This document shows, piece by piece, positions 1-4,580 of a stretch of 50,208 bases of DNA. The translations under genes were made by a program, and so were the position numbers. This stretch comes from Vulcanimicrobiota bacterium (GTDB taxonomy: Bacteria; Vulcanimicrobiota; Vulcanimicrobiia; Eremiobacterales; Eremiobacteraceae), in NCBI GenBank assembly GCA_019235715.1, contig JAFAKE010000066.1, positions 1 to 50,208 on the forward strand, read 5' to 3'. Each line of letters opens with the position of its first letter. The first letter of the stretch is position 1. The notes under the pieces were generated by a model. That model was not told where the DNA came from and ran no database searches. It saw only the letters and a program-made list of their open reading frames with translations.

Positions 1-770
1 GAGGCAAAGGGCGCAGTGCCGAACAATTCGACAAGCTTTTTCGTCACAGCCTCAATCACCGCATCGACATCTCCACCGCGCTGGTTGATCTCAGTCACGA
101 ACGGGCCGCCGCAGATGATGCCCGTCGCGATGTCGCGCGCCGGAAGCCGCGCGCCCGACGATTTGACGGTCGCGACCGCGACGTCCTCGAAGCCGGCGGC
201 GCGCACGAGTTCGCCGACCGGTTCGCGGTCCAACAGTCCGAAAGGCACTTCGTAAAAACGCGGCGGGTCATCCGGAAATGCAGCGCGGATCTGTTCGTCG
301 GCCGCGGCGAAAACCGGGCAGCGAGCGAGCCGATCCCAAACGTTGAAGATGATCCATCCACCGGGGCGCAGCACCCGAAGCGCTTCGCGCAGCGCCTTTC
401 GCCGGTCCGCAAAGAACATCACCCCGAACTGGCACACGACGGCGTCAAAGCTGCGGTCTGCGAATGGCAGCGTCGTCGCGTCGACGGACTGCCACGAGAT
501 GCGCTCGTCCGCGCCCAGCTTCGCGCGCGCGATGTCGATCATCGCCTCATTGAGATCGGTCGCGGTGATGCGCGCGTCCGCCGGCAGCGCACCGGCTAGC
601 TTGGCGGTGAGGACGCCGGTGCCGCAGGCAAGCTCGAGCACGCTCATCTGCGCGACCGGCGGCACGCGCGCGGCTAGATCTGCGGCTTGCGGCTCGAAGA
701 CGAGCGGCACGAGGTAGCGATCGTAGTGCTCGGGGATCGAGCCGATGAATGCGCGGTACACGTCGCCCAT
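1..770 (-). CDS. Class I SAM-dependent methyltransferase (partial)
   Basis: The frame opens with ATG at 770 and stays open to the window edge, so the C-terminus is missing after about 256 residues. The Rossmann SAM-binding motif LELACGTGVLT lies near residue 45, followed by the acidic motif ITATDLNEAMI. The later segment VLRPGGWIIFNVWD is typical of UbiE/Methyltransf_11-type small-molecule methyltransferases. The substrate cannot be read from sequence. The gene starts 13 bases after the stop of an ABC-2 permease on the same strand, so it is probably the last visible gene of the exporter operon and may methylate the exported compound or a lipid. The ribosome site is weak (AAAGAA). Confidence 0.88.
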   Translation of the reverse strand, partial: MGDVYRAFIGSIPEHYDRYLVPLVFEPQAADLAARVPPVAQMSVLELACGTGVLTAKLAGALPADARITATDLNEAMIDIARAKLGADERISWQSVDATTLPFADRSFDAVVCQFGVMFFADRRKALREALRVLRPGGWIIFNVWDRLARCPVFAAADEQIRAAFPDDPPRFYEVPFGLLDREPVGELVRAAGFEDVAVATVKSSGARLPARDIATGIICGGPFVTEINQRGGDVDAVIEAVTKKLVELFGTAPFA

Positions 771-783
771 GATTGCGTTCTTT

Positions 784-1599
784 CTACGATCCGGTGCTTT
801 GATGATGGTCGAGGCCCCGCCGCCAGAATAGATAGGCCGCGGTGAACCACAGCGCGCCGATCAACGGCGTCAACCAGCCGAGCAGCGGATTGACCGCGTA
901 GTCGCCTTGCGCGGTCTTGTGCAGCAGCGTCGACGCCGGGAAATAATTGATGAACGCGAACGGGAAGATGAAGGAGAGCGTGAAGCGCACGACGCGGTTG
1001 TAGATCGAAAGCGGATAGCGGGTGAAATCCGTTTCCAGCGACATGACGACCCAGCGCAGCGTGTCCAGCCGCACCACCCAGAACGCCAGCGTCGCCACTG
1101 CCAGTTGAATGGCGAAGTCGATGAACGCCCCGCCGACCATCGCGCCGAGCAGCAAGCCGGCGACCCCGATGGTCCACTGCAGATGGACGAGCCCTTGCAC
1201 GATCGCGAAGAAGATCGTCGCCACGATCAATTCGTCCGGCCAGATCTGGCCGGGCTGCGAAATGATCTGGAACAGCGGATCCAGCGGGCGAACCATAAAG
1301 CGGTCGAAGCGGCCTTCGCGGATGTGCCACGGCACGTCGCCGACCGTGAAGAACAGCGTGCCGTTGAGCGACGACGCCAGCCAGTACAGCGCGTACAAAA
1401 AGACGACTTGCTGCCACGTCCAACCGTTCATGATCGGGAAGCGGTTCATCGTCAACCAAATCGTGGCGATCGCTGAGCCATGCAGCACGAGCGTGAACAC
1501 CAGCCACACGAAGAAATTCGCGCGGTACTCGGCGAGCGTCAGAAAGTTGAGGCGCCAGAATTCCGCATAGGTGCGCCAATACGGCGCGAGACTAGCCAC
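784..1599 (-). CDS. ABC-2 type transporter permease (DUF990/ABC2_membrane_6-like)
   Basis: This protein of about 271 residues has six or so hydrophobic segments and matches the pattern of ABC2_membrane_6 permeases, which pair with a second related permease and a daunorubicin-type ATPase. I place the start at GTG 1599. It overlaps the upstream permease stop (1592-1594) by eight bases and gives the N-terminus VASLAPYWRTYAEF, which aligns with the paralogue's AYAEF segment. An in-frame ATG at 1758 would add 53 arginine- and serine-rich residues read from inside the upstream gene and is unlikely. The conserved motif WHIREGRFDRFMVRPLDP is seen in both permeases in variant form (VREKIREGNIAIDLMRPI). 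The pair probably forms a heterodimeric exporter channel in the inner membrane. Confidence 0.9.
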   Translation of the reverse strand: MASLAPYWRTYAEFWRLNFLTLAEYRANFFVWLVFTLVLHGSAIATIWLTMNRFPIMNGWTWQQVVFLYALYWLASSLNGTLFFTVGDVPWHIREGRFDRFMVRPLDPLFQIISQPGQIWPDELIVATIFFAIVQGLVHLQWTIGVAGLLLGAMVGGAFIDFAIQLAVATLAFWVVRLDTLRWVVMSLETDFTRYPLSIYNRVVRFTLSFIFPFAFINYFPASTLLHKTAQGDYAVNPLLGWLTPLIGALWFTAAYLFWRRGLDHHQSTGS

Positions 1600-2404
1600 C
1601 CTGCACCACCACGCGCCGTTCGCCGACGCGCCAAAGCGCGAGCGCGCCGACGGCGAAGACGACGACCCACACGGCTTGCAGTGCAAGCGTCGACAGCAAT
1701 TCGGGTCCCTGGTATTTGCCGAGATAGATCGAGAGCGGGGCGTTGTAGATCGCCGCAAACGGCGAAGCCTGCGCGATCGCCGTCACGGGGGACGGGAAGA
1801 ACTGCAGCGGGACGACCGCACCGGCCAGCAGCGACGTGATGAACTGCACCATGAGCTGGAAGCCGAAGATCTCCATCGTCCAAAACGTGATCGTCGCCAT
1901 GAGCAAATCGAGGAAGAAGTTGACGAGAAAGCCGAGCGCGACACTGACGAGAAAGGCGAGCGCGATCAGCGGCGACGCCGGCGCGCTTATGTGCGTGCCC
2001 GTGAGCGCCAGGAGGCCGATGGCGATCGGCAATGCCACAGCGATCTGCACGAGCGCAAACCCGGCTTGTCCGACCGTGTCTGCGAAGACGTACAGCGGCA
2101 CGCTGATCGGGCGCATGAGATCGATCGCGATATTGCCTTCGCGGATCTTCTCACGCACGACATACGGGCCGTCCACGTTGTAGATCAGCCCGACCAGCAA
2201 CGCGAGCACCGAATACGTGATGATGTCCTTGAACGAAAAGCTCTGCTGCGGACCGTTGTTCGCATACAGCGCGCTCCATAGCGCGTAATACAAATAGACG
2301 CGCAGCGCGATCGAGCCGATGTGCGTGAACACCTCTTCGCGATACGTCGCTTCGCGCGCAAACGCTCGTTTGGCGAATTCGGCGTACGCGCCCCACGGGA
2401 TCAG
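1592..2404 (-). CDS. ABC-2 type transporter permease, probable CTG start
   Basis: This is the second permease of the exporter, about 270 residues with six predicted membrane segments and the family motif VREKIREGNIAIDLMRPI. The start is the unusual point. The only upstream in-frame ATG (2566) lies 163 bases inside the Kelch gene and would add about 54 residues with no permease character. The first downstream GTG (2332) would delete the segment AYAEFAKRAFAREATYREEV, which aligns with the start of the paralogous permease. Between them, CTG at 2404 overlaps the Kelch stop as CTGA, with AAAGGA about eleven bases upstream. I therefore use CTG with translational coupling. It overlaps the next permease by eight bases. 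Confidence 0.87.
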   Translation of the reverse strand: MIPWGAYAEFAKRAFAREATYREEVFTHIGSIALRVYLYYALWSALYANNGPQQSFSFKDIITYSVLALLVGLIYNVDGPYVVREKIREGNIAIDLMRPISVPLYVFADTVGQAGFALVQIAVALPIAIGLLALTGTHISAPASPLIALAFLVSVALGFLVNFFLDLLMATITFWTMEIFGFQLMVQFITSLLAGAVVPLQFFPSPVTAIAQASPFAAIYNAPLSIYLGKYQGPELLSTLALQAVWVVVFAVGALALWRVGERRVVVQGG

Positions 2405-3534
2405 GGCTGAACGCGTCCTTTTTGGAACTTGATCTGGGTGACTGGGCTGACGAAGCGCAGCACCGATGTCACCGGCGCGGTACCGGAATAGGGCGCACCG
2501 CCGATCACCCAGATCTGATTGCCGAGCGATGCCACAGCCATGCCATGGCGCGGATAGGGCATCCACGGCCCGCTGATCCAGCCGCCGATGCTGCTGCTCG
2601 AGATCTCGGTCGTCTGCGTGACCGTGCGTCTCAGATCACCCTCGAACGTGATCGCTGATTCCTGGTCCTGCGCGGAGCCGGCGTAGTTCTCGCCGCCGAT
2701 CGCCATCAGCCTGCCGTTGACGGCGGCAAGGCCGAAGTCGCTGCGACCGACGTGCATCGAGCTGCACGCGCCCCAGCGATCGCGCGCAGGATCGTAGACG
2801 TCGCAGGTGCGCAGGCTGTTCTGATTGCGATCGCGCCCGCCGACGACGTAGATCTTTTCGTTGATGACGACCGAAGCGGCCAAAAAGCGTGAATCGCCGA
2901 GCACGTATTCTTCCGTACGCCACGTGTTGGTCGCGGGATCGAAGATGAACATGCTGGTCTCATCGTTGCCGTGCGAGGACTGGCCGCCCAGCAGATAGAG
3001 TTTGCCGTTCACCGCTTGCATCATCGGACCGTAACGCGGGAATGGAAGCGAGGGCAGCTCCATCCACGAGTCGTCGATGGGATCGTAGCGCCAGAACTTG
3101 TTGGTGACGAGATCCTCGATGCGCCCGCCCGCGACGTAGAGATAGCCGCCAAGTCCGGCAGCGGCCGCGTGATCGACGCTTTCCGGAATGGTTGACGCCA
3201 GGCGCCATTCGCCGGGATGCGACACGATCGGGCCTGCGACTCCCGGATTGGCTTGCGGCGATGGGAACGTCGGCTCTAAGACGAGCAGCGTCGCCATCTG
3301 TTCGTCATGCGGACCGAAGCCGCCGACGAGGTAGATGCGTCCGTCCATCACCGCGACCGCTGCGTCTTGACGCGCCGAGGGTAAGTCGGGTCCGTGCACC
3401 CACACGCCTTTATTGAGATCGACGACGACGCCGGTCTGCGAGCCGATCTCTGCCGCGCCGGACGCCGGCAGAACCGCTGCCAGCGCGATCCCTACGGCGA
3501 GCAGCGCGCCCCGGAATAGCTGCACGGGAATCAT
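2401..3534 (-). CDS. Exported six-blade Kelch-repeat protein
   Basis: The protein has 377 residues. A hydrophobic signal sequence (about residues 7-26, ending near ASGAAE) is followed by six Kelch repeats. Each has a W near the start of the blade and ends in a YLVGG-type strand pair (LVGGF, VAGGR, LLGGQ, VVGGR, AIGGE, VIGGA). Six blades would close one beta-propeller. The gene sits inside the ABC exporter operon: its ATG overlaps the ATPase stop (ATGA at 3531-3534) and its TGA overlaps the probable CTG start of the next permease. A Kelch protein is not a usual part of ABC-2 exporters, so it may be an extracytoplasmic partner or enzyme acting on the exported product. That role is inferred from position only. 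Confidence 0.9.
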   Translation of the reverse strand: MIPVQLFRGALLAVGIALAAVLPASGAAEIGSQTGVVVDLNKGVWVHGPDLPSARQDAAVAVMDGRIYLVGGFGPHDEQMATLLVLEPTFPSPQANPGVAGPIVSHPGEWRLASTIPESVDHAAAAGLGGYLYVAGGRIEDLVTNKFWRYDPIDDSWMELPSLPFPRYGPMMQAVNGKLYLLGGQSSHGNDETSMFIFDPATNTWRTEEYVLGDSRFLAASVVINEKIYVVGGRDRNQNSLRTCDVYDPARDRWGACSSMHVGRSDFGLAAVNGRLMAIGGENYAGSAQDQESAITFEGDLRRTVTQTTEISSSSIGGWISGPWMPYPRHGMAVASLGNQIWVIGGAPYSGTAPVTSVLRFVSPVTQIKFQKGRVQP

Positions 3535-4580
3535 GAAACGGTCTCCACGTCGGCGGTCACCAGCAGTCCGTCGCGGGCGGCAACGCTGCCATCGCCCAAA
3601 CCATGCTGATAGATGTCGCGGATGATCGCTTCGAGCGGCGGCTCGGCGATCGTGACGTCCCTGAGCTCGTAGTGCTGGGCGAGCTTGACCACCAGCTCGT
3701 CGGCGCGCACGGCATCGCGGTCGAATTCGATCACGATGCGCGGGCCCTCGCGCGACACGACGTTCGCGCCCGGCACGGTGATGCGCACGTCGTCGCAGTT
3801 CTCGCAGTTGAGGTCGGCGGTCAGCGTGCGATTGCGTCCATAACGCCCCTTGATCGTCTCCACGCTGCCGTCATACAGCTTGCGGCCGTGATCGATGAGG
3901 ATGATGCGCGCGCACAACTTTTCGATGTCCGCAAGATCGTGCGTCGTCAAGATAAAGGTGGTGCCGCGGTCGCGGTTCACGCGCGCGATGAACTGCCGGA
4001 TGTTCTCTTTGGCGACGACGTCGAGGCCGATCGTCGGCTCGTCCAGGAACACGACTTTCGGTTCGTGCATCATCGCGGCGGCGAAATCGCCGCGCATACG
4101 CTGGCCGAGGCTGAGCTGGCGCACGGGCGTACGGATGAACTCGTCGAGGCCGAGCAGTTCGGTGAATTCGCGCAAGTTGCGTTCGTACGTCGCGGCCGGC
4201 ACGTTGTAGATCGCGCGCAGCAGCTGGAACGACTCGATAAGCGGAAGATCCCAATACAACTGCGTGCGCTGACCGAACACGACGCCGATCTGGCGGCCGT
4301 TGGCTTGGCGATCCGCCCACGGCACGATGCCGTCGACCGTGCACGTGCCGCTCGTCGGCACGAGAATGCCGGTCAGCATCTTGATCGTCGTAGATTTGCC
4401 CGCGCCGTTCGGGCCGATGTAGCCGACAAGTTCGCCCGCGTCGAGTTTGAAGCTGACGTCGCGCACCGCGTCTTTTATTTCATAGTCGCGCGAGAATAAC
4501 GTCGCGATAGCGCCAAGCGGGCCTTCTTTGCGGCGCAGGGTTCGGAATTGTTTCGTGAGGCGATCGGCGCTGATGATCAT
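3531..4580 (-). CDS. ABC transporter ATP-binding protein (ABC-2 exporter)
   Basis: The protein has 349 residues. It contains Walker A (GPNGAGKST, about residues 57-65), the ABC signature (LSLGQRMRGD), Walker B (VVFLDEPTIGLD) and an H-loop (TTHD). The approximately 100-residue C-terminal extension is typical of the daunorubicin/polysaccharide-type ATPases that partner ABC-2 permeases. It is the first gene of the operon and its stop overlaps the Kelch start. It energises export by the two downstream permeases. The substrate is unknown, but related systems export lipids, antibiotics or polysaccharide. The start at ATG 4580 is 66 bases from a divergent gene, so the operon promoter must lie in 4581-4646. 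Confidence 0.95.
   Translation of the reverse strand: MIISADRLTKQFRTLRRKEGPLGAIATLFSRDYEIKDAVRDVSFKLDAGELVGYIGPNGAGKSTTIKMLTGILVPTSGTCTVDGIVPWADRQANGRQIGVVFGQRTQLYWDLPLIESFQLLRAIYNVPAATYERNLREFTELLGLDEFIRTPVRQLSLGQRMRGDFAAAMMHEPKVVFLDEPTIGLDVVAKENIRQFIARVNRDRGTTFILTTHDLADIEKLCARIILIDHGRKLYDGSVETIKGRYGRNRTLTADLNCENCDDVRITVPGANVVSREGPRIVIEFDRDAVRADELVVKLAQHYELRDVTIAEPPLEAIIRDIYQHGLGDGSVAARDGLLVTADVETVS

Follow-up and report, generated by a model that had tools for sequence, protein, structure and literature searches.

In one family of the Candidatus Eremiobacterota, uncultured soil bacteria, a gene for a Kelch propeller protein that looks to be exported is a stable syntenic member of an ABC exporter operon. 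It occupies the same slot, between the ATPase gene and the first permease gene (Perm1), in 12 of the 13 operons of the family, across nine genera. Other lineages and one member of the family (genome G008) keep the transporter without the Kelch gene; we therefore regard its product as probably a functional but lineage-specific and dispensable accessory, and not as a general part of the pump.

The exporter operon

The window, by which we mean the whole stretch of 50,208 nucleotides that was analysed, is part of a 2.5 Mb genome of this family. The operon runs on the minus strand from position 4580 to position 784, in the order ATPase, Kelch, permease, permease, and is followed by a fifth gene:

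3531..4580, minus strand: ABC ATPase of the exporter, 349 aa (PF00005, E 1e-25)
2401..3534, minus strand: Kelch protein (PF01344, E 2.4e-48), with a signal-like N-terminus (residues 1 to ~28), a short spacer, a predicted six-bladed propeller (~37-368) and a Cys244/Cys257 pair
1592..2404 (start approximate), minus strand: Perm1, ~270 aa, with a CTG or other non-standard start (PF06182, E 8.5e-22)
784..1599, minus strand: second permease (Perm2), 271 aa, with a GTG start (PF06182, E 2.5e-36)
3..770, minus strand: class I methyltransferase, running past the edge of the window (PF08241, E 2e-25)

The ATPase and Kelch genes share the four bases ATGA (3531-3534), the Kelch and Perm1 genes share the four bases CTGA (2401-2404), and the two permease genes overlap by eight bases (1592-1599). 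The four-gene order and the chain of overlaps asserted in the preliminary description were confirmed at all three of these junctions, with the caveat that the CTG start of Perm1 has to be assumed, since no ATG, GTG, or TTG start was found for this gene at the Kelch junction (window 2401-2410, minus strand). Here the window reads CTGATC and its nearest relative (locus L031) reads CTAATG, with an ATG one codon later at the place where the window has ATC. Either Perm1 begins at CTG or some other non-standard codon, or there is an assembly or sequencing error within positions 2401-2410. The methyltransferase gene does follow, as the preliminary description said, and begins 14 bases beyond Perm2, at position 770, but it does not belong to the conserved unit. 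No homologue of it was found near the other 11 operons, in stretches of 10-17 kb, and for this lack of conservation the idea that it carries out tailoring for the system was rejected.

With its ATPase and two PF06182 permeases, the transporter is, to judge by its sequences, of the ethyl viologen exporter (EVE) kind (TC 3.A.1.141; DUF990/PF06182). The permeases score 78.5 and 126.1 bits against this profile (cut-off 22) and form the sole PF06182 pair in the genome, and the PF00005 protein encoded by the first gene of the operon is, by its adjacency, the cognate ATPase expected of an EVE family member. The permease profiles had no match among solved structures; the substrate of the pump is presumably a small hydrophobic or amphiphilic compound. 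The EVE family includes EvrABC of Synechocystis and BC0513-BC0515 of Bacillus cereus (PMC5417439, PMC3924187). The five annotated operons that were read likewise begin with a single ATPase gene, followed by the genes of two dissimilar PF06182 permeases. They differ from the operon of the window in having no Kelch gene, whereas here a gene for an apparently secreted Kelch protein is interposed between the ATPase and Perm1.

Predicted fold and probable export of the Kelch protein

The Kelch sequence contains six GG repeats, the number that goes with a six-bladed propeller, and its AlphaFold2 model (pLDDT 80, pTM 0.80) shows, at the level of a predicted structure, just such a fold. The top PDB matches of the model in Foldseek are Kelch domains, for example 5yy8 (E 1.4e-21; TM-score 0.86 by target length). 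By prediction and sequence the protein thus has its six-bladed fold in common with the domains of NS1-BP, KEAP1, and the KLHL proteins; unlike these, it is bacterial and apparently exported, it has conserved loop residues of its own, and it carries no BTB or BACK domain.

The suggestion in the preliminary description that the propeller is exported still looks correct. All 12 family Kelch proteins have an N-terminal hydrophobic stretch without a lipobox cysteine (judged by eye), and behind this lies a spacer that varies in length. Cys244 and Cys257, which are the sole conserved cysteines, are both present in nine of the 12 proteins and both absent in the three from genus g3; their retention or loss as a pair suggests a disulfide, and hence an extracytoplasmic location, though the pattern traces to a single evolutionary event. 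Vulcanimicrobium, a relative that has been cultured, is enclosed in a Gram-negative envelope that includes an outer membrane (PMC9758169), so the compartment in question is presumably the periplasm.

The invariant polar residues of the Kelch protein are unequally placed. One face of the propeller, made up of the DA and BC loops, carries thirteen of them (Q56, E118, D121, E140, N145, K146, R167, H188, D191, S194, R216, R264, and R329), whereas the AB and CD loops of the opposite face carry one. This contrast hints at a binding face but does not prove one, because the counts are low and the two sets of loops are unequal in size.

The periplasmic mutarotase NanM (YjhT) is another exported bacterial Kelch propeller. 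The protein of the window has these features in common with it but falls far under the cut-offs of the NCBIfam N-acetylneuraminate epimerase profiles (54.8 bits against a cut-off of 416 and 48.6 bits against 256), and a mutarotase of the NanM type was rejected on these scores. They also count against the broader idea that the Kelch protein is an extracytoplasmic enzyme which modifies the exported product, for instance in the manner of those Kelch propellers that resemble epimerases or lyases. The match to the epimerase profile, weak as it is, and the loop face, with its conserved acidic, His, and Arg residues, speak for such an enzyme, but the PDB matches are mostly Kelch domains of the binding type, and we think this role quite improbable. 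More doubtful again is a true auxiliary subunit that, docked onto the two permeases at the membrane, would gate or assist export. Its proponents could point to a position and overlaps that are fixed within the family and to the variable spacer behind the hydrophobic N-terminus, which might act as a tether; the predicted loops of the permeases are short, however, and related transporters lack a Kelch partner.

Conservation and history of the slot

Kelch orthologues are present in 12 of the 14 family genomes, with ~46-75% identity to the Kelch protein of the window. No ATPase, Kelch, or permease genes were found in one of the remaining two, which is 72% complete (G001). The order ATPase-Kelch-Perm1 is the same in all 12 bearers, and Perm2 comes next in the 10 operons that have it contiguous; in G010 it is 17 kb away, and in G003 the contig stops inside Perm1. 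The overlap of the ATPase and Kelch genes is four bases in 12 of 12 genomes and that of the permease genes eight bases in 10 of 10 operons, a regularity that is not due to chance. The divergence of the Kelch protein follows that of the transporter (r 0.79 and 0.83 between their distances), as would be expected from co-inheritance.

Almost every genome of the class has the transporter, with Perm2 in 107 and ATPase orthologues in 102 of the 117, whereas high-scoring Kelch proteins occur in this one Eremiobacterota family only. Among the 119 ATPase loci of the class, the slot holds Kelch in 12, a hexapeptide-repeat protein in 57 (59 with two loci in which Perm1 is off the contig), and some other gene in 12; it is empty in 32, including G008, and not classifiable in four. 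The 106 loci outside the family have the hexapeptide-repeat protein (57), an empty slot (31), or other genes. The hexapeptide-repeat protein (PF00132) is unrelated to Kelch, and its gene overlaps the ATPase gene by four bases in the sister-family loci that were read. No signal peptide was seen in it by eye, and it looks cytoplasmic; a search for a close orthologue in the Kelch-bearing family gave weak matches only. This protein (L055:5535-6293, with its orthologues in the 57 sister-family loci) resembles a gamma-carbonic anhydrase with a C-terminal extension, in which the usual metal-binding histidines are absent by eye. In the sole case that was read of the 12 other occupants (G014, L105:577-1206, minus strand), the slot between ATPase and Perm1 contains a gene on the opposite strand for a signal-bearing protein.

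The EVE operons of the sister Eremiobacterota families have orthologous ATPases and permeases (Perm2 is ~50-65% identical) but differ in the slot, which contains the hexapeptide-repeat protein or nothing, and in the position of Perm2, which has often been relocated. In many of their genomes, pirin and DNA-glycosylase genes are found between Perm1 and Perm2. Five operons from annotated plasmids of five other phyla have the plain arrangement ATPase-Perm1-Perm2, without Kelch, and in four of them (Streptomyces, Sinorhizobium, Gloeothece, and Deinococcus) the ATPase and Perm1 genes overlap by four bases. The inference drawn earlier from the overlaps, that Kelch and transporter are produced in fixed proportion, is thus unsupported: operons without Kelch have four-base overlaps too, and a feature so general in operons of this type says nothing about stoichiometry.

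When 84,980 species genomes were scanned, by means of two conserved peptide patterns that may have missed distant cases, the Kelch gene was located in an exporter neighbourhood in six family members only, with four further matches away from such genes. No Kelch relative outside the family was found beside exporter genes, within flanks of up to 1.5 kb in the sister families and of ~5 kb for the GTDB matches. The preliminary description required that Kelch be neither missing from most of the orthologous operons nor randomly placed. This is so within the family, but outside it Kelch is not in the exporter operons that were compared, and a pairing general to EVE operons is ruled out by the sister families, by G008, and by the five other phyla.

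G008 has the order ATPase-Perm1-Perm2 with no Kelch gene between, and no Kelch orthologue was found elsewhere in its genome. Nor was any relaxation of constraint seen in its transporter. Departures from otherwise invariant columns number two and three in its permeases, where other lineages have 0-8 and 1-26; these are no commoner than in the Kelch bearers, and relaxed constraint was set aside as a sign that the transporter needs Kelch. A tree built from ATPase, Perm1, and Perm2 in concatenation resolves the family as a single clade, and the slot occupants cluster by clade, with four changes of occupant on this tree versus a mean of 19.9 for shuffled labels (3-4 changes over the trees made). 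G008 is placed, with weak support, among the Kelch bearers, and 0% of 200 bootstrap trees set all of the bearers apart from it; an early-branching position is not rejected (p-AU 0.135). The simplest reading, towards which these trees lean, is that Kelch was inserted in the stem of the family and later lost in G008.

Possible roles of the Kelch gene

Our best explanation, which we advance tentatively and with slightly less than even confidence in it as a whole, combines such an insertion with an accessory function at the exit side of the pump. The Kelch gene would have entered the operon in the family stem, exactly where the ancestral ATPase and Perm1 genes met, and would then have been retained. 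The ATPase and permeases would pump their small hydrophobic or amphiphilic substrate across the inner membrane, while the Kelch protein would leave the cytoplasm via Sec and form its disulfide outside. At the exit side its conserved loop face may be a binding surface for the exported compound or for a partner, and its co-expression with the exporter would reflect a common pathway, in which it is an accessory and not an obligate subunit.

Since the slot also accepts the unrelated hexapeptide-repeat gene, position by itself is no proof of a functional link. The main rival, which we consider rather unlikely, is accordingly that the ATPase/Perm1 junction is a permissive site where unrelated genes settle and from which their removal would disturb the translation of Perm1, the Kelch protein having no role in export. 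The variety of occupants across the class (Kelch, the hexapeptide-repeat protein, an opposite-strand gene, or nothing), the splitting of Perm1 from Perm2 by pirin and DNA-glycosylase genes, and the clean absence of Kelch from G008 are all in keeping with such a site. But a single occupant maintained throughout a family over 50% divergence, with a conserved loop face, is more than passive hitchhiking would lead one to expect, and the occupants are clade-clustered, not scattered. Less likely than a permissive site is a stronger form of the accessory explanation, in which the Kelch protein would be dedicated to the exporter, as an extracytoplasmic subunit or as a receptor on the exit side, and the slot would host different accessory proteins in different lineages.

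A literature search for Kelch proteins with ABC exporters returned one paper, a Fusobacterium annotation study that appears unrelated. As far as these searches show, such an accessory has not been described for the ABC-2 exporter class. If the functional link is true, an exporter family that is widespread but has been little studied gains an exit-side partner, in a phylum where genetics is almost lacking. The presence of Kelch, of the hexapeptide-repeat protein, or of nothing at one and the same junction offers a natural comparison for the roles of genes within an operon.

Kelch genes also occur in other settings. One genome of genus g3 of the family (G011) has ~27 Kelch matches in 3.1 Mb, several of them in tandem on one contig (C107), which suggests an expansion of the gene family. 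In a sister-family genus (g12), distant Kelch genes lie directly behind a gene for an ECF sigma-70 factor (L016, L020, L021, and L022), and in two of these loci (L016 and L021) the Kelch gene adjoins an Asp/Glu racemase gene.
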